Of a DNA stretch of 36,987 nt, positions 9,839-28,432 are shown one piece after another. Origin of the DNA: Desulfobulbaceae bacterium (GTDB lineage Bacteria > Desulfobacterota > Desulfobulbia > Desulfobulbales > Desulfobulbaceae); contig JAFLKR010000077.1 of assembly GCA_019163135.1 (NCBI GenBank), forward strand, positions 1 through 36,987, given 5' to 3'. The first letter of the stretch is position 1; every line of letters begins with the position of its first letter. Made by a program: the position numbers and the translations under genes. Below the pieces are notes generated by a model. It was not told the origin of the DNA. It made no database searches and saw only the letters and a list, made by a program, of their open reading frames with translations.

Positions 9839-12800
9839 TTACCCTGTTGTCAGTTGGTTTAATGGCGCTGGCGTTGCCTTGAGCAGTATGCGAAAAAGGC
9901 TCCCCTTGCCCTCTTCACTTTCGACCTCGATGCGCCCCCCCAATTCCGACACTAATCGTTGGGTGATGGAGAGGCCCAACCCGGTACCAACGCCAGCCGC
10001 TTTGGTGGTAAAGAATGGATCGAAAATCTTTTTCTGGGTTTCGATATCCATGCCGCAACCGTTATCGCTTACTTCCACACGCACTTCGCCATCGGGCTCG
10101 GAAGGTCCGATTATCTTCAACCGCACCCATGAATCCTCTTTATCCATTGCCTGGATGGCGTTGATCAGGAGATTGACGACCACCTGTTCCATGGCCAACG
10201 GATCGGTACACAGGGCGGGAAGATCTTCGGGAATATCAACTTCAAAGGTCTTGACGGTTTTTCTGATACGCCCCTGGCAAATGAATATGCCTTTTTCTAT
10301 GACTTGCTTCAGGTCAATCCGCCGATTTTCCCCCTTCCCCCGCTCACGCACAAACTCTTTTAGATTTCCTACAATCTGGTTGATCCGGACCGAGCCGTGC
10401 TCAATATTGCCCAATAATTTAAAACAGTCCTCCCGGAAAAACGAATAGGGCCGATTGAAAACCTGCAAATCCGGATGCTCCAGCACATATTCGTCTACAA
10501 TGGTCAGCAGAAATTCGAGATACGATCGCAAAATGGGTGTATTGAAATAAATGAAATTATTCGGATTATTTATCTCGTGCGCGATCCCGGCGATCAGCAG
10601 CCCTAAGGTGGCTAATTTTTCGCTCTGGATGAGCTGCCGGTCCATCACTCTCGCCTGGGTAATGTCAAGGATGCGTATTATTGTGGCCTCGATCGCTCCC
10701 GATTCATTCTTTACCACGTCCACAACCACCTGCTTCAGCCTCTCGGGATCCATTTTCCCCTGACGCTCATAGGACCCCGAATATCCTTGCAGGGCTGAAA
10801 AGGGCCGCTCACAGCCTTCACATGGAATCGACCTGCCCTGAAACCCTTCAAAACAATATTTGCCGATGACCTGCTCGTAATCGGCTAATGCATAGTAGTT
10901 CATGGCAGCCTTGTTCAGCTGTTTTATCCGGAGCTCTGCGTCCAGCATGATGAGCGGATCGGAGATCCCGTCAAGGGCCATGGCCAGCGTAGCCTTACTG
11001 TTGAAAAGTTGCTCCTCGACCCCCCTGCGCTCTTCCATTTCCTGAAGCAGTTGCTCGTTAGCCGATTTCAGATTGACCGTCCGTTCCTCCACCCGCCTTT
11101 CCATTTCATCACGGGCCTTTTTCAGCGCATCCTCGATTATTTTACGCTCGGTGATATCGGTGTGCACGATGACCACGCCGAAACTCACCGGCCGCAGCGG
11201 GGTGACGTTCATGGTGAACCAACGCTCCCGCCCCGGTGCATGGCAGGGGTATTCCAGACTGAAAGCGGGCAGGCTGCCGCTCAACACAGCTTGAATGCCC
11301 TCCAGACTTTTCAAAGCAGCATCATCCGATGCCGAACCGTAACTCTTGCGGCAGGCTGTCAAGTAGTTCGCGCCGACCTCCGTAAAGGGTGCCGGCTTGC
11401 CGGGCTCAACCCCGTTTTCAAGCGCAAACCGGCGCCAAGGCTCGTTGACGGCGATGATCACCCCGTCAGCATCCAGCACCACGATTTCCGAGGTGACGGA
11501 GTCCAGAATCGCGACACTGAAAGCCTTGCTTTCCAGCAGCGCTGCTGTCCGTTCTTCAATACGCGACTCCAGCAACTGGTTGATCCGGTTTATCTTGCCG
11601 AACTGCTCGGATAATGAATCCGCCATCTCGCTGAAATTGTGGATCAGGTGTGCAGATTCCTTTATGCCGCTTTCAGGCCAGACAATCTCCCGGTTCTCTG
11701 TCCCCAATTTAATTGGCAGGTCTTGGGTAATCAGGCGGAGTCGTTCAAGGGTACTCATGGACCGACGACTTAATAATTCCGCCAGAACCAGCGATCCGAG
11801 AAAAATCAAAAACAACAACGACAGCTTGCCAGCATAAGCATCGACAAGCATCTTCTGGAACGGGGCTACCGGTTGTTCTAGAATCAGTTTCCATTCAGCG
11901 AGATCGCCAACAGCTATTTCAGCGACATACAGCGATTTCTGCCAGCGTTCCATGGTGGGAGTATGGGAGGGGATGACCGGCACCCACTGACTGATTTCTG
12001 CATCGAGACGTTCAAGCGTCCCTTGATCACGCGCAAAAGGTTTCAGGACCGTTTGATCTGTCCGGTTGGAAATAATGACAGTACCGTTTTTATCTATCAA
12101 GGTGTAGAGCGTCGCCTTATTTTGCGAACTCTTATCGAGAAGGTCTTGAATCTGCTCCAGACTCAAGATACCGATAACGTAACCGCCGTATTCTCCGCCA
12201 GTGATTACCGGGGCAAGCATTGCAACCATAGGCCGTGGCGACCCGATTCGGGCCATGACCACTTCCGAGAGCATCGGCTTGCGCGCCTGCTTGAGTTGCT
12301 GATTGAAGGGACGGTCCGCAAATACTTTGCCGATATTTTCATCGCCGGATTCGTCGAGCAGAGGGTGGTAGGCTTTTACGGTGGCCTCTTGGTCGAGCAA
12401 CCCCATCCGCAGGAAATTGGTATCCGATTTTTTAGCGAGCCCCAGATGAAATTGCATCTGCGGCAAGGTGGCTGTGGCCGCCAGATCCGCGAGATTCATT
12501 ACAGCGGTTTTGCGGTTATACAACCAGGTCGCCAAGAGATGATTGACCCGTTCACCGTCTCGAATGAGGGTGGTGCGGATCGTACGGTCGATTTCGTTAA
12601 AATCGGTTCGACCACTGACTGCGAGCATGATCAGAGCCGGATACAGCACAAAAAAGGTCAAGAGATTGCAGGCAATATCACTAAACGATATCGTCGCGGA
12701 GCGCGACAGAAGTACGAACCCGGTATAGAGCAGCCTGGCGACAATGGCATTGGCAATGCCGTTGACCGCCTGTTTGATCATGGTGATCGCGACATTACTG

Positions 12801-15417: not shown

Positions 15418-15444
15418 ATAAGCCCTTGAAATTCAAGGGCTTAT
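15418..15444 (-). terminator. Intrinsic terminator left behind downstream of the tRNA-Ser integration site
   Basis: ATAAGCCCTTGAA and TTCAAGGGCTTAT form a 13-bp near-continuous palindrome; on the minus strand it is followed by TTTTTTCTTC. It lies immediately beyond the outer 20-bp att copy, in the place and orientation expected for the original terminator of the tRNA-Ser gene before the island separated them. Confidence 0.75.
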
Positions 15445-15453
15445 AAATATAAA

Positions 15454-15473
15454 TGGCGAAGAAGGTGAGATTC
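15454..15473. repeat. Distal att copy of the tRNA-Ser island
   Basis: TGGCGAAGAAGGTGAGATTC matches the tRNA-Ser 3' end (18043-18062) at 19 of 20 bases, covering CCA, the acceptor strand and part of the T arm. It is the fragment displaced when the island entered. Confidence 0.85.
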
Positions 15474-15501
15474 CTGTTTTTTACAGTAATCAGTTCTAAG
15501 T

Positions 15502-15522
15502 GTTTGAATTTACTATTCAAAC
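15502..15522. other. Hairpin inside the island's distal end
   Basis: GTTTGAAT (15502-15509) and ATTCAAAC (15515-15522) form a perfect 8-bp stem with a 5-base loop. The island stretch 15474-15733 has no gene; it holds this hairpin and one TTGTGTGACA repeat, which suits a recombination end region. Confidence 0.45.
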
Positions 15523-15733
15523 CTAAATGATGCGTGACAGTTTGTGTGACATATACAGATGTGCCTTAAAGTCAACTTCCCTTCACAAGTTCCGGTCTGG
15601 CGCAACACAAGTGAATTATCAGTAACCATCAAATAATGGCAGCTGTAGGTTTTGGTGATAAAACTACCCATTCAGGTTTGCATAATTCGCTATTACAATG
15701 AGCGATTTTAGCAATTATTTCAATGAGATATAT

Positions 15734-16759
15734 TTAATGATCATGCCGATGGTGAGCATCTGGAAAATGTGGGTGTGAGTGTTTCAATTCATTGTGCTGA
15801 TGATGATGGCTAGCCATGAATAAGTTCTTGTGATGTTCATCAAGCAGAAGTTCGTGGTCATGTTCCAACACTTCGTGAACATGTTCATGTTCGTGATTCT
15901 CTGTCAGATGCAACCAGATGCCCAACATCATCAACCCACCGGCAATTAACAGAGGCATTGTTACCGGTTCGCCTAATGCGACAGCCAATACCGCACCGAA
16001 GAATGGAGCAACTGAAAAGTAGGCACCTGTTCGAGCGGTGCCAAGATGACGTAAGCTTATGACGAATAGTGTCAAGCTTACTCCATAGGCGAGAAACCCC
16101 ACAACCATGGTGATTGCTATATTAGACAAAGGGGGCCATGCTGCTCCCAAGGAAAAAGCCAGAACAAGATTAACCGTGCCTGCAATCAATCCTTTTATAG
16201 AGGCAATCCAAGTAGCATCTGTCAACGATACTTGGCGTGTCAAATTGTTATCGACACCCCATGCGAAACAAGCACCCAATACTGCCAATGAAGGCCATAA
16301 ACCCTTGAACAGGAATTCCTCTGGGCAGCTTAAAACGACAGCACCAAACACAATCGCTGTCATCCCAAATGCGATTCTATAACTAAAATTTTCTTTAAAA
16401 AGAAACCACGCCAGCAGTGCCGTAAATACGCTTTCTGCATTCAATAACAACGAGGCACTTGATGCGGGCATCTCGGTCAGCCCTATCATTAATAATACAG
16501 GTGCAATAATGCCCCCTGCCAATATTGCACCCGCAAACCACAACATATCAGCACGTGACAATCTGCCTGATGGGGCATGGGTCAACTTGCGATATAGTGC
16601 AAGACCAACCCCGGACCCTAAATAAAGCAAACCTGCCAGCAACCAAGGGTTGACACTGCTTAACAATAGTTTCGCTAGTGGCGTTCCCGCACCAAACAAC
16701 AAGGCGGCTCCCAACGCAGACCGAACCCCCATTTGGCGAAGGCTATCTTTCCAGTTCAT
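15734..16759 (-). CDS. DMT/EamA-family transporter with histidine-rich C-terminal tail
   Basis: A 341-residue inner-membrane protein with about ten hydrophobic segments over residues 12-285 arranged as two EamA repeats (an early PLAKLLL segment, TEMPASSASLLLNAESVFTALLAW, and later LGTARTGAYFSVAPFFGAVLAV). Such proteins export or exchange small metabolites. After the last helix there is a tail of about 55 residues packed with His, Glu and Asp (HEHEHVHEVLEHDHELLLDE, then SHHHQHNELKHSHPH). That tail could bind Ni, Co, Zn or Cu and sense or buffer metal. It lies alone in the tRNA-Ser island, AT-richer than the host genes. The substrate is unknown; metal export is an inference from the tail only. 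Confidence 0.88.
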   Translation of the reverse strand: MNWKDSLRQMGVRSALGAALLFGAGTPLAKLLLSSVNPWLLAGLLYLGSGVGLALYRKLTHAPSGRLSRADMLWFAGAILAGGIIAPVLLMIGLTEMPASSASLLLNAESVFTALLAWFLFKENFSYRIAFGMTAIVFGAVVLSCPEEFLFKGLWPSLAVLGACFAWGVDNNLTRQVSLTDATWIASIKGLIAGTVNLVLAFSLGAAWPPLSNIAITMVVGFLAYGVSLTLFVISLRHLGTARTGAYFSVAPFFGAVLAVALGEPVTMPLLIAGGLMMLGIWLHLTENHEHEHVHEVLEHDHELLLDEHHKNLFMASHHHQHNELKHSHPHFPDAHHRHDH

Positions 16760-16841
16760 TTATAATCTCGTGCGATTACAGCAGATTGATTTTTTATGAA
16801 TAACTAACGACATCCCTTTAAGTCCTAAATAAGGACCCTGA

Positions 16842-17207
16842 TCAGACCCAAGTATTTTCTTCAATGCGTGGTGCTTGGATGTATCTTATTTCTATAAGAT
16901 TGCGCTTCGGTTCGGGTGCCTGTTTTTGCATCTGCGGTTTTGGATAGCTATAATGGAAATTAAATGAATGTGGCTGAAGAGCGAGAGCAGTTAATCCTAA
17001 TGCTGCCAGCAATATGGGCGAGGTTATAAATCCAATAAAAGCACAGATTAATCCAAGTATACCCCACAAGAATTGCCGTTTGAAAAGTGCGACTATTCCG
17101 GTGAGTATAGCCAGCGGTACGAAAATGGGTGACATGTAGAAAATGCTTATAATACCAAGGACAAAGGAGGTTAGTCCTTCGGGTTTGCTCGGTTTGTTAT
17201 TCATCAA
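16842..17207 (-). CDS. Small membrane protein (DUF4190-like)
   Basis: A 121-residue protein with two or three hydrophobic segments (about 12-32, 33-45 and 46-78) in the GIISIFYMSPIFVPLAILTGIVALF and LWGILGLICAFIGFITSP style of DUF4190-type proteins, followed by a polar tail rich in Pro, Gln and Lys (KPQMQKQAPEPKRN) that should be cytoplasmic or periplasmic. It is island cargo, 38 bases downstream of the zinc-ribbon/NifX-like gene on the same strand. No function can be given. Confidence 0.65.
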   Translation of the reverse strand: MMNNKPSKPEGLTSFVLGIISIFYMSPIFVPLAILTGIVALFKRQFLWGILGLICAFIGFITSPILLAALGLTALALQPHSFNFHYSYPKPQMQKQAPEPKRNLIEIRYIQAPRIEENTWV

Positions 17208-17245
17208 GATAGTGGTCGATAATTATTTTCGGTATCACGACAGCT

Positions 17246-17716
17246 TCATCCACGAAGTTCACCCCGCAAAAACGACTCTACAGCGTATTTAGCATTTCCC
17301 GATGCGCCTCTTATCGTTCGTATGCCTTTAATACCCAAAACGTTTATCGTTCCATCACCTATTCCGCCAGCAATCAAAGTCATGACTCCACATTGCGCTA
17401 AAATATTAGACATGCTCGACTGGACATTACCAGTCACTGAAGATTCCATGACCTCCTCAGCCTTGATTAGTTTATCTTCGACAGTATAAATTGTGCATTT
17501 TCGACAATTATCAAAGTCTTGATCGATTTGTTCACCGATGGTCGGAACTGCTATTTTCATTATAACTCCTACTTCTTTTCCAATGTTTCCCAACTTAAAG
17601 TCAGAATGAAATTTGGTCCCGCACGTTGGGCAAGCCATCAGAATTCCACCAATGTTATCCGGGAATCGTAAACGCTGACGACATATCGGGCACTTCTTCT
17701 CAGTAAAAGCAGTCAC
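17246..17716 (-). CDS. Zinc-ribbon plus dinitrogenase cofactor (NifX/NifB C-terminal)-like fusion protein
   Basis: A 156-residue protein. Residues 8-37 carry two CxxC pairs (CPICRQ...CPTCG), a zinc ribbon. From residue 53 (MKIAVPTIGEQIDQDFDNCRKCTIYTV) to the end it matches the dinitrogenase iron-molybdenum cofactor domain (PF02579), with the typical GVMTLIAGGIGDGTINVLGIKGI segment. Such domains bind or carry metal-sulfur clusters or act in Mrp/NBP35-linked cluster handling. The internal Met53 lies where free-standing family members usually begin, so the zinc ribbon looks like an added module. It lies 7 bases after the end of the integrase fragment and inside the island. Confidence 0.8.
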   Translation of the reverse strand: MTAFTEKKCPICRQRLRFPDNIGGILMACPTCGTKFHSDFKLGNIGKEVGVIMKIAVPTIGEQIDQDFDNCRKCTIYTVEDKLIKAEEVMESSVTGNVQSSMSNILAQCGVMTLIAGGIGDGTINVLGIKGIRTIRGASGNAKYAVESFLRGELRG

Positions 17717-17723
17717 GATATTA

Positions 17724-17945
17724 CTAGAAACATGCTAAAATTATGTAATAAAGAAAGAATATAATCAGATTAATGGGGTTATGAATTAGCCATTTGTGGG
17801 ATATGGTTTCAGCTTCAGATTTCCTACCAGTACCCAATGATATTCTAAGTACTGGTGATATGGAAGGAAATTTCCGCAGGATAGGCGATGGAATTCGTCT
17901 TTGATAGTAGAATGTGCCATTGCGATTAAGTAGATAGTCAGCCAT
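17724..17945 (-). pseudogene. Truncated tyrosine recombinase (integrase), N-terminus only
   Basis: A 73-codon frame beginning MADYLLNRNGTFYYQRRIPS, the typical start of phage-type integrases (NGxYYFRRRVP). The similarity continues to about residue 55 (LGTGRKSEAETISHKWL), then gives way to a hydrophobic, AT-rich tail and a stop. The arm-binding region is present, but the core-binding and catalytic domains (R..HxxR..Y) are missing. The gene starts 98 bases from the tRNA-Ser 3' end, the normal place for an integrase using that site. It is therefore the relic of the enzyme that inserted the 15454-18042 island. Confidence 0.75.
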
Positions 17946-17998
17946 TGTGTCCCGCCTTGTGTGACAGGATACTCGACCTTCTCACTCCACCAAAAGAG

Positions 17999-18032
17999 AA
18001 AGCCCTGTAACTCGTAAGAATTACAGGGCTTT
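17999..18032 (-). terminator. Terminator downstream of tRNA-Ser
   Basis: AAAGCCCTGTAA (17999-18010) pairs with TTACAGGGCTTT (18021-18032) with a 10-base loop; T-runs lie on both sides, so it may act in both directions. It sits 10 bases past the tRNA CCA end. By the integration model this terminator came with the island and replaced the host one now at 15418-15444. Confidence 0.75.
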
Positions 18033-18042
18033 TTTTATATAG

Positions 18043-18128
18043 TGGCGGAGAAGGTGAGATTCGAACTCACGGTACTTGCATACACACGCGTTCCAGGCGT
18101 GCACCTTAAACCACTCGGTCACCTCTCC
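18043..18128 (-). tRNA. tRNA-Ser (anticodon GGA)
   Basis: The minus strand folds as an 86-base tRNA with a long variable arm. Acceptor GGAGAGG pairs with CTTCTCC, discriminator G, encoded CCA. The anticodon stem-loop CACGC-CTGGAAC-GCGTG gives anticodon GGA, which reads UCC/UCU serine codons. The T arm contains the GAGTTCGAATCTC pattern. The last 20 bases are the att copy of the adjacent island, so the functional gene's 3' end was supplied by the element. Confidence 0.95.
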
Positions 18129-18218
18129 GTAATATGCGCATCAAGGGGCGGTGAAAGCAACCATCGCGCCTGACGTGGGCCATTACTAAACTGAGTTCAT
18201 CTTTTTTACAACAGAAAA

Positions 18219-18701
18219 TTAACGTCGGTTTCTAAAAAAGGTTCGAAGCAGGAGGCTGCAGTCTTCTGCCAGCACTCCGCTGGTAACGGCAAAACGGTGG
18301 TTAAGCAGCCCATCGGTGCCGATGCGATATTTGGAGACAATGGCCCCGGCCTTGGGATCTGCAGCCCCGAAAACCAGACGACCGATCCGGGCATGGACCA
18401 TCAAGGCCGCGCACATGGCACAGGGTTCAAGGGTCACATACACGGTCACACCGGGCAGGCGGTAATTCCTGACGGCCAATGCCGCTATTCGCAGCGCCAC
18501 CATTTCCGCGTGTCCCGAAGGATCGGAAGTGGTGACGCAAGCATTGCCCGCTTCGGCCAGAATCGTCCCGTCGGCCCCAAGGACCACGGCCCCCACCGGC
18601 ACCTCCCCGGCAGTGCCAGCCCTCCGGGCCTGCACCAGAGCCTTGGCCATCATCAGCTTATCGTCGACCGATGGTTCTATGACCGTTGCTATCGCTTCCA
18701 T
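18219..18701 (-). CDS. tadA: tRNA-specific adenosine deaminase TadA
   Basis: A 160-residue zinc deaminase that converts A34 to inosine in tRNA-Arg(ACG). The catalytic HAE motif (H64, E66 in GHAEMVAL) and the zinc ligands C94 and C97 in the PCAMC motif are present, with the usual MVHARIGRLVFGAADPKAGA after them. Length and order fit the bacterial enzyme. A short N-terminal extension (about 14 residues) precedes the domain. An AGAGGTGG lies just upstream of the ATG at 18701. It is read away from the divergent sigma-54 activator gene; the 90 bases to the tRNA-Ser hold no other gene. Confidence 0.94.
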   Translation of the reverse strand: MEAIATVIEPSVDDKLMMAKALVQARRAGTAGEVPVGAVVLGADGTILAEAGNACVTTSDPSGHAEMVALRIAALAVRNYRLPGVTVYVTLEPCAMCAALMVHARIGRLVFGAADPKAGAIVSKYRIGTDGLLNHRFAVTSGVLAEDCSLLLRTFFRNRR

Positions 18702-18733
18702 TCCACCTCTCGGAACAACTGAAAGAACTTCCC

Positions 18734-18762
18734 TTGGCTTTTCCTGCCGGGCAGTTTATAAT
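18734..18762 (+). promoter_or_regulatory. Sigma-70-type promoter with a palindrome in the spacer
   Basis: TTGGCT (18734-18739) and TATAAT (18757-18762) are separated by exactly 17 bases; the -10 is perfect and the -35 matches TTGACA at 4 of 6. The spacer holds the 11-base palindrome CTGCCGGGCAG (18744-18754), which could be an operator. It would drive the activator gene at 18816 with a leader of about 45 bases. Confidence 0.65.
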
Positions 18763-18815
18763 TACGAAAAAGATATTGAAAATACGAAACCGAAACTCAA
18801 CAACGGTACTGGACC

Positions 18816-20195
18816 ATGGATGAAAAAAAAGTAGCCGTGCTTGCCTACGAATGCTCCCCGGAAAACCGAAGCAGTATCGAAAAGGCCTTGACCTCAAACT
18901 TCGACATCACCTTTCAAAACGATCCGCAGTCCTTTCAGCAGGCAATGAGCAAAAAGCAGTATGACGTTATTTTCATGAATATCCTCCCGGAAAATGGCAG
19001 AAAGATCGATCTGCTTGAAAGAATTCACGACCACACCCCCTTCACCCCGATTATCATCACCTGTGATTCCGAAGATACCATGCTGCTGGATAAGGCGCTG
19101 GAACCGGGGGTGTACGATGTCATGGCCCATCCGCTTTCACCGGCGACCATCAAACGAACCGTGCGGCAGGCGCTTTATAAACGCCAATTGACCAACGAGT
19201 TGGCCTACCTGCGCCGCACCCAGGATATTGTCTACAGTTTCGACCGGATCATCGCCGAGAGCGATAATTTCCGGATGATCATCAACAGCCTGCGGAAATT
19301 CGCCTCCACCGACGCCACCATCCTCCTCACCGGCAACACCGGCACAGGCAAGAGCTTTCTCTCCGGCACCGTGCATCATAATTCACCCCGCCGGGACAAT
19401 CCGTTCATCAAAATCAACTGCGCCAACATTCCGGAGGCCTTGCTGGAATCCGAACTCTTCGGCCATGAAAAAGGATCGTTCACCGGTGCTGACAAACAGC
19501 GTATCGGCCGGTTCGAACAGGCCGACGGCGGGACAATTTTCCTCGACGAAATCGGTGAGATTCCGCTGGAAATCCAGTCCAAACTCCTGCGGGTGCTGGA
19601 GGAAAAATCCTTTGAACGGGTGGGCGGCAACAAAACCATCCAGGTGGATGTGCGGCTCATCGCCGCCACCAATCGCGACCTGCCTCACCAGATTCTGGCC
19701 GGAAAATTCCGCGAAGATCTCTATTATCGGATCAATGTCCTGCCCGTACACCTGCCGCCGCTCAAGGATCGCTCCCGCTGCCTGGCCCCCCTGGCGATAA
19801 AACTGCTGGAAAAGGCCACGGCTTCGATGAAAAAAAAGAACATCACCGGCTTCACCGCCGAAGTTCTGGCCCTGATTCAGGGGTACGACTGGCCGGGCAA
19901 TATCCGTCAGTTGGCCAACACCATCGAACGGGCGGTCATCCTTGAAGACGACGACCTGATCACCCTGTCCTCCCTGCATATCCCTGAATTGGGCCGGACC
20001 ATGGCCCCCTTGATCCAGGTCACCGAACCCCTGGAAACCCATGAGCGCGAGCTGATTCTCAAGGCCCTGGCCGAGAATCTCTGGGTGCAAAAAACCGCCG
20101 CCCGCTGCCTGGGAATCAGCCCCAGGGCTTTAAATTACAAAATCAAGAAGTTCGGCATTACCCATCAAAACTGGCGAAAACACAAACAAGCATGA
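18816..20195 (+). CDS. Sigma-54 activator with a degenerate receiver domain
   Basis: A 459-residue NtrC-like protein. The AAA+ domain (about 140-375) is complete: Walker A GNTGTGKS, GSFTGA in the sigma-54 contact loop (Ala to Ser against the usual GAFTGA), Walker B TIFLDEIGE, and the VDVRLIAATNRDL and HLPPLKDR segments. A C-terminal Fis-type helix-turn-helix follows (WVQKTAARCLGISPRALNYKIKKFG). The N-terminal 125 residues have receiver shape, but the acidic pocket reads AYE, position 55 is Asn instead of Asp (VIFMNILPEN), and the conserved Lys is His (MAHPLS). It should not be regulated by ordinary phosphorylation. No partner kinase is nearby. Its stop directly abuts the convergent nikR gene. 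Confidence 0.93.
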   Translation: MDEKKVAVLAYECSPENRSSIEKALTSNFDITFQNDPQSFQQAMSKKQYDVIFMNILPENGRKIDLLERIHDHTPFTPIIITCDSEDTMLLDKALEPGVYDVMAHPLSPATIKRTVRQALYKRQLTNELAYLRRTQDIVYSFDRIIAESDNFRMIINSLRKFASTDATILLTGNTGTGKSFLSGTVHHNSPRRDNPFIKINCANIPEALLESELFGHEKGSFTGADKQRIGRFEQADGGTIFLDEIGEIPLEIQSKLLRVLEEKSFERVGGNKTIQVDVRLIAATNRDLPHQILAGKFREDLYYRINVLPVHLPPLKDRSRCLAPLAIKLLEKATASMKKKNITGFTAEVLALIQGYDWPGNIRQLANTIERAVILEDDDLITLSSLHIPELGRTMAPLIQVTEPLETHERELILKALAENLWVQKTAARCLGISPRALNYKIKKFGITHQNWRKHKQA

Positions 20196-20606
20196 TCAAT
20201 GCAGGTGGTCGCCCGTGCTCGACATGGTCAGATTGCCATCCTTAACGCCCCGCAAGGCGATCAGCCGCTCAGCCAGTTCCTTGACCTGCGAAGCCCTGCC
20301 CTTGACGATGGTCACCTCCAGGCAGTGGTGATGGGCCATATGCACATGCGTGGTTGAGGTGATCTGCTGGTGGTACTCATGCTGCAACTCGGTAATCTTT
20401 TCCTGAAGCTGCGGCTGGTGGTGATTATAAACCAGGGTCACCACCCCGACGACCTCGCTGTCCTGCTCCCATTGCTCGTTAATCAAAACCTTTCTGATCA
20501 GGTCGCGCACCGCCTCGGACCGGTTGGAATAGCCTCTGGGCCTAATGTAGTTGTCGAATTGGTCCGACAGTTTTTCATCCAGTGAGATAGAAAATCGTTT
20601 CAGCAT
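20196..20606 (-). CDS. nikR: Nickel-responsive regulator NikR
   Basis: A 136-residue transcription factor: an N-terminal ribbon-helix-helix (MLKRFSISLDEKLSDQFDNYI, then GYSNRSEAVRDLIRKVL) and a C-terminal ACT-type nickel domain. The four nickel ligands of E. coli NikR, H76, H87, H89 and C95, occur at the same numbers here (QHEYHQ, THVHMAHHHC), so it is very likely nickel-sensing. The tail is also His-ended (GDHLH). It lies 6 bases after the M48 peptidase gene and is probably co-transcribed with it. No nickel transporter gene is in the window, and I could not identify its operator. Confidence 0.95.
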   Translation of the reverse strand: MLKRFSISLDEKLSDQFDNYIRPRGYSNRSEAVRDLIRKVLINEQWEQDSEVVGVVTLVYNHHQPQLQEKITELQHEYHQQITSTTHVHMAHHHCLEVTIVKGRASQVKELAERLIALRGVKDGNLTMSSTGDHLH

Positions 20607-27817: not shown

Positions 27818-28432
27818 TCACCCCTGCGCCAGCATGGGTTGATGTACTTTTGATGTACTTTCTTCCAAAGATGGCAGTGCTTGCATCGCTCTCTTGTTGT
27901 TGGTGATGAGTGTATGAATGTACCGCTGCGTGGTTAAAATGGATGCGTGGTGACACTTCCGCATGTTACCTGGCGTTGAGGGACAATAAATGGCCCTTTC
28001 ACGCTGCGGTTCAAATGAATCCTGACGCAGTGGTGGTGAAGATGCCCCTTCCTGTTCCAAGTGACTCACTTCTTCCGCAGAACAGTACTCGACCCCATAA
28101 CCTCCAAAGCGCAAGGCTCTGGCAATCGCCCTGGTCTCGGCCAACTCAAGTATTGCCGGTGCTATCTTGGCGTCACGTTCCACGCTGGCCATGCCCATCC
28201 CACAAAAACACCCTTTGGTAGTGGTGCAGACCGCTTTGACAACAGCCACGACCCCATCGTATTGAAAAACCTCGGTGCTGATATCGAAGGATTCATTTTG
28301 AAGATGAGCCAGCCGTAACCGGCCACCTACCTTGGGGAATTCGGATTCGATCCACTGCCCCGTCTTCTGGTTATAGTGCCGTAATGAAAGGATTTCCTCG
28401 GGCTTAAATTCACTTCCATTGACCTGTTGCAT
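27818..28432 (-). CDS. Rad52/Erf-like N-terminus fused to an integrase C-terminal remnant
   Basis: A 204-residue frame with a good AAGGAGG ribosome site before the ATG at 28432. Residues 1-130 look like a phage/plasmid single-strand-annealing or related protein: a beta-rich part (VVAVVKAVCTTTKGCFCGMGMAS) then ILELAETRAIARALRFGGYGVEYC, the helix and glycine turn seen in Erf/Rad52-type proteins. From about residue 160, HHASILTTQRYIHTLITNNK is the C-terminal catalytic end of a tyrosine recombinase with its tyrosine. No arginines of the active site remain, so recombinase activity is excluded. The fusion probably arose by deletion between two element genes. The N-terminal family call is by pattern only. 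Confidence 0.6.
   Translation of the reverse strand: MQQVNGSEFKPEEILSLRHYNQKTGQWIESEFPKVGGRLRLAHLQNESFDISTEVFQYDGVVAVVKAVCTTTKGCFCGMGMASVERDAKIAPAILELAETRAIARALRFGGYGVEYCSAEEVSHLEQEGASSPPLRQDSFEPQRERAIYCPSTPGNMRKCHHASILTTQRYIHTLITNNKRAMQALPSLEESTSKVHQPMLAQG
27841..27861. repeat. Left subterminal iteron pair
   Basis: Two tandem GATGTACTTT units one base apart, repeated exactly and in the same orientation at 33345-33365 (21 bases in all). They lie 68 bases inside the left att and overlap the 3' part of the integrase remnant, where arm-type sites are expected. Confidence 0.75.

Follow-up and report, generated by a model that had tools for sequence, protein, structure and literature searches.

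The 2.57-kb segment at positions 15474-18042 of the window, the 36,987-nucleotide stretch of DNA analysed here, is supported as a decayed genomic island of about 2.6 kb that occupies the 3' end of a tRNA-Ser(GGA) gene. A small decayed island at this place had been proposed by an earlier, sequence-only reading, and the att pair, an empty site in relatives and an integrase stub bear the proposal out. Very probably, an island of the DUF6538 type integrated site-specifically in the tRNA gene and later decayed by deletion, with its exporter gene kept. Site-specific recombination would have placed the island in the last 20 bases of the gene. The tRNA sequence would thereby be left intact, with the native terminator displaced to the distal side and a tRNA-Ser-type terminator of the island taking its place behind the tRNA. 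The integrase is envisaged as having bridged both ends, with its N-terminal domain on tandem 12-bp sites and its catalytic domain on the att core. We infer that one deletion took everything past integrase residue 52 and that another probably fused two cargo genes, after which the island would have been unable to move on its own. The gene for the exporter would have stayed intact, and its product probably exports nickel or cobalt.

Island limits and the empty site

The window derives from a 3.64-Mb draft genome in 217 contigs. Features that define the limits of the island are as follows.

18043-18128, minus strand: tRNA-Ser(GGA), the integration target, with the tRNA-side att copy as its final 20 bases
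18043-18062, minus strand: att copy within the tRNA 3' end, identical to 15454-15473 at 19/20 bases
15454-15473, minus strand: distal att copy, a repeat of the tRNA 3' end
17999-18032, minus strand: terminator now serving the tRNA, a hairpin directly after the gene and of a tRNA-Ser type in the order
15418-15444, minus strand: displaced native tRNA-Ser terminator, a hairpin past the distal att that matches the empty site of relatives

The near-identical 20-bp ends noticed in the sequence-only reading thus agree at 19 of 20 bases, one copy lying inside tRNA-Ser(GGA); random sequence (2 x 37 kb) would be expected to give about 4e-6 such matches. The DNA between the att copies is poor in G and C. 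Its GC content is 42.5%, compared to a mean of 53.3% and a minimum of 44.6% among 293 same-sized pieces from the rest of the window. No RNA family other than tRNA scores above its gathering threshold in a search of known families, and a PADLOC search for defence cargo gave one weak match (E 0.0049), which is taken as chance.

Sequences 3' of tRNA-Ser(GGA) were surveyed in the 26 relatives that have the gene, making 27 loci with the window. Five of these relatives (L010, L014, L019, L020 and L022) have an empty site in which the tRNA is directly joined to a AAGCCCTTGA...TCAAGGGCTT terminator, the one found in the window beyond the distal att. In these five, 37-38 of the first 45 bases past the tRNA agree with the distal flank of the window, compared to 18-23 for the DNA that follows the window's tRNA today; the remaining relatives carry other sequences there. 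The earlier reading had predicted that the tRNA end of strains lacking the island would run directly into sequence of the 15418-15444 type, as it does in 5/26 relatives. It had also named an arrangement that would speak against an island, namely relatives with the same genes in place and no att repeats, and none was found. Of 55 genomes, only that of the window contains the integrase stub, and the only strong homologue of the exporter (G054, 81% identity) lies in a 20-kb stretch that has no tRNA. No intact copy of the element was found in these 55 genomes, where the arm pattern described below occurs in the window only.

In the nearest relative, G019, likeness past the distal att extends for about 70 bp, and the NfeD and SPFH genes that follow the distal att in the window sit elsewhere, not beside tRNA-Ser. 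The comparisons therefore establish the insertion, but one of the two lineages has undergone rearrangement of the wider distal flank. Two marks of a tRNA island are thus present, direct repeats from the tRNA 3' end (19/20) and an empty site in relatives (5/26, with a comparable distal flank of only about 70 bp). A mark of an active island, a functional integrase, is replaced by a 52-residue stub, and because of this reduction the island is a remnant and not an active island.

The exchange of terminators also holds as first described, with one hairpin (17999-18032) behind the tRNA and a native-type hairpin (15418-15444) beyond the distal att. Elsewhere in the order, in G001, G018 and G506 among others, hairpins of the former type directly follow tRNA-Ser(GGA). 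On a simple reading, the island would carry a tRNA-Ser end and terminator acquired in another host, and these would keep the tRNA gene working. The neighbourhood of this gene on its other side is conserved, since tRNA-Ser(GGA) lies beside tadA in 27 of the 30 tadA loci scanned, including that of the window (18043-20195).

The integrase stub and the tandem sites

An open reading frame at the tRNA end of the island and two short tandem repeats, one at each end, retain features of an integration system.

17724-17945, minus strand: integrase stub of 52 DUF6538 residues followed by 21 unrelated residues, with the core-binding and catalytic domains absent
17946-17966, minus strand: putative arm-type tandem on the tRNA side, TGTCACACAaggcGGGACACA, which abuts the integrase start codon
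15531-15551, minus strand: putative distal arm-type tandem, TGTCACACAaacTGTCACGCA, with a period of 12

The stub scores 34.5 bits against PF20172 (DUF6538), above the curated cut-off of 27, and lacks the catalytic domain of DUF6538 tyrosine integrases. Complete relatives are about 570-700 residues long, and scans of six full-length relatives found DUF6538 in all six and the Phage_integrase model in five. Because it is truncated after 52 DUF6538 residues, the stub is dead as a recombinase. An integrase start adjoining the tRNA had been noted, and the DUF6538 reading frame indeed begins (17945) 97 bp from the tRNA end. Protein searches with the stub gave no match in 54 close relatives and no close relative in genome contigs, plasmids or phages; its relatives were recovered by the DUF6538 family profile only. 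The genome of the window contains a second broken DUF6538 integrase (L153, G000:C5:70000-72614, at about 1900-2250), which adjoins tRNA-Leu(CAG) and has an internal TAG. Elsewhere in the window, the C-terminal part (HASILTTQRYIHT) of a reading frame at 27818-28432 presumably resembles the tail of a tyrosine recombinase, as judged by eye; the frame has no family in Pfam.

Repeats some 70-80 bases inside each end had also been pointed out. Copies of TTGTGTGACA are located at 15542-15551 and 17957-17966, 69 and 77 bp inside the island ends. Each is part of a tandem 12-bp pair, in the same orientation at both ends, and the tRNA-side pair is imperfect, its second unit reading GGGACACA. In IMG/VR, the distal tandem is matched exactly only once, 2 bp before an ATG of a full-length integrase. 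There, in a viral contig (L360:8184-9817), the identical 21-bp tandem precedes a tyrosine integrase of 536 residues that contains a Phage_integrase domain; the true start of this integrase is uncertain in that the open frame runs on upstream through the tandem. At their N-termini, the integrase and the stub have RISLGT and a subsequent AE in common (8/20 residues; one-sequence search, E 0.009). The distal pattern read backwards has no match in IMG/VR, and the exact tRNA-side tandem is absent from viral contigs.

DUF6538 islands compared

DUF6538 is present in 31 of 395 genomes sampled across the phylum, and 26 of the 30 loci of a first set have a tRNA or tmRNA gene next to the match. In a second set, drawn from named genomes, such a gene is upstream of 43 of 64 domains, and of the 45 distances from tRNA to integrase, two of them from viral contigs, 40 are 85-132 bp.

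Many islands of this family carry a common motif at their two ends. In the first test, 25 loci were scanned and 11 had a candidate distal att copy; one (G301, a 14-base match) was dropped to leave ten, and for G327a the second match was used, the first being in another tRNA gene. The sequences of this set had already been inspected before testing. In direct orientation, the shared end motif beats all 200 shuffles in eight of the ten islands (p = 0.005). The window is modestly significant (p = 0.035, 200 shuffles) and the last island fails (p = 0.129). The direct motif exceeds the inverted one in 9/10, and it stops 66-100 bp short of the distal att. For the second test, removal of five duplicates from the 43 named-genome domains with a tRNA left 38, ten of which have a distal copy. 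Six of these ten islands beat all 60 shuffles and four do not. Direct exceeds inverted in 6/10, and the motif lies 55-117 bp from the distal att.

The tandems are likely arm-type sites of the DUF6538 integrase family, with DUF6538 itself their likely reader, because of the shared end motif, its position and the IMG/VR match just before an integrase ATG. Position and shared motif are the basis on which the domain would be assigned binding to the tandem sites. DUF6538 is not mentioned in the open-licence papers searched, and as far as that literature shows, the arm-site geometry of the family is undescribed.

A structure model of DUF6538 (pLDDT 93) was compared with known folds. Among matches found by VIA-align, the attP-binding N-terminal domain of a P4-like integrase (PDB 3rmp) ranks second by Z, with a middling Z of 4.7 and an rmsd of 2.0 over 49 aligned residues. 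However, 3rmp is not recovered by the DUF6538 sequence profile, and a Foldseek search of the model against the PDB gave no significant match. The model is thus suggestive only of a P4-like attP-binding fold.

An alternative reading is a non-autonomous element. In one form of this idea, the island is a passenger whose 52-residue DUF6538 protein still binds its sites, steering or blocking recombination by a foreign integrase, and this is judged very improbable. In another, which we regard as very improbable, an island that kept its att and arm sites is moved in trans by the related integrase of another element. Its att copies (19/20) and distal tandem arm site are indeed intact, and a similar island of 3.5 kb with a truncated integrase exists in G327. 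Short frames are also common, 18 of the 43 DUF6538 matches listed being shorter than 250 residues, in a count that does not exclude contig ends. However, neither a second arm pattern nor a matching full integrase is present in the window's own genome or in 54 relatives, and the second DUF6538 gene that the genome has, at tRNA-Leu, is itself broken by its internal TAG. It is hardly credible that the repeats arose by duplication of the tRNA 3' end or by recombination between tRNA copies, without insertion by an integrase: the hairpin currently following the tRNA is indeed of the tRNA-Ser type, but the DUF6538 stub at the usual spacing of its family, the arm-type tandems at both ends, the low GC of the island and the empty site in relatives all argue against such an origin. 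Site-specific integration followed by decay remains the preferred reading.

Two other properties of DUF6538 loci were observed in the course of these comparisons. In many DUF6538 loci the integrase leader (gaps L086-L115 and L236-L315) folds strongly, and the resulting hairpin contains the arm sites and often also the Shine-Dalgarno sequence. The mean z is -3.2 for 23 loci, a set with hand-picked integrase start codons in which G238, G379 and G414b are near-duplicates, and -3.5 for 38 loci, compared to -0.56 for a control inside the gene. At least five of six Shine-Dalgarno bases are paired in 31 of 57 leaders. The hairpin in the window's own leader is weak (z -1.08). Islands of the family can also be very small. 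In Geomobilimonas luticola (L281, about 9900-12000), att copies at tRNA-Pro match at 40/40 bases and are 2.1 kb apart, which leaves room for little more than the integrase.

Known islands and cargo genes

tRNA-targeting genomic islands and ICEs of the P4, HPI and ICEKp1 kind share with the window's island an integration site at the 3' end of a tRNA gene and an integrase that comes first, in the direction of the tRNA. Targeting of tRNA genes, displacement of the terminator and integrase leaders with stem-loops are known from ICEKp1 and others (PMC13023037), and a displaced tRNA terminator at the far end is a further common trait. In contrast to this kind, the window's island has a DUF6538 N-terminal domain, measures only 2.6 kb and contains a dead integrase. 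It also brings a tRNA-Ser-type terminator, whereas int of ICEKp1 is read from the tRNA promoter through stem-loops in its 5' UTR.

Taken alone, the island is an ordinary remnant, from which the host probably gained a metal exporter. A more useful outcome is the rule that the distance between a DUF6538 integrase and a tRNA or tmRNA gene hardly varies and that both ends of such an island have in common a tandem motif specific to the integrase. This rule suggests arm-site binding as a testable role for DUF6538, a domain of unknown function. It also helps to find island ends even where the integrase is broken, as it is in the window.

Three reading frames make up the cargo.

15734-16759, minus strand: intact EamA/DMT exporter, a relative of the nickel exporter CnrT, with a histidine-rich tail
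16842-17207, minus strand: small membrane protein of 121 residues, with no family over cut-off
17246-17716, minus strand: chimeric reading frame, a zinc-ribbon piece and then a NifX/FeMo-co-type domain with its own ATG at 17560

Among the genomes searched, the closest homologue of the exporter is that of G054, from another family of the order, and dN/dS between the two is about 0.08, a value that covers their whole divergence, not the time spent in the island. Annotated plasmid relatives include CnrT of Cupriavidus metallidurans (52.7% identity over 68% of the query), a protein counted among Ni(II) exporters in PMC11647595. The island exporter is homologous to CnrT and, by this likeness, probably transports nickel or cobalt; unlike CnrT, it stands alone, with no other cnr genes.

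The chimeric reading frame looks like a second deletion scar. Over 49 residues, its zinc-ribbon piece shows 73% identity to a protein that stands alone elsewhere in the genome. Its NifX-type domain, the start of which is preceded by AGGAG, is 58% identical over 102 residues to another protein of the same genome. A gene for the nickel-responsive regulator NikR is located at 20196-20606, 2.1 kb from the tRNA and near the exporter-bearing island.
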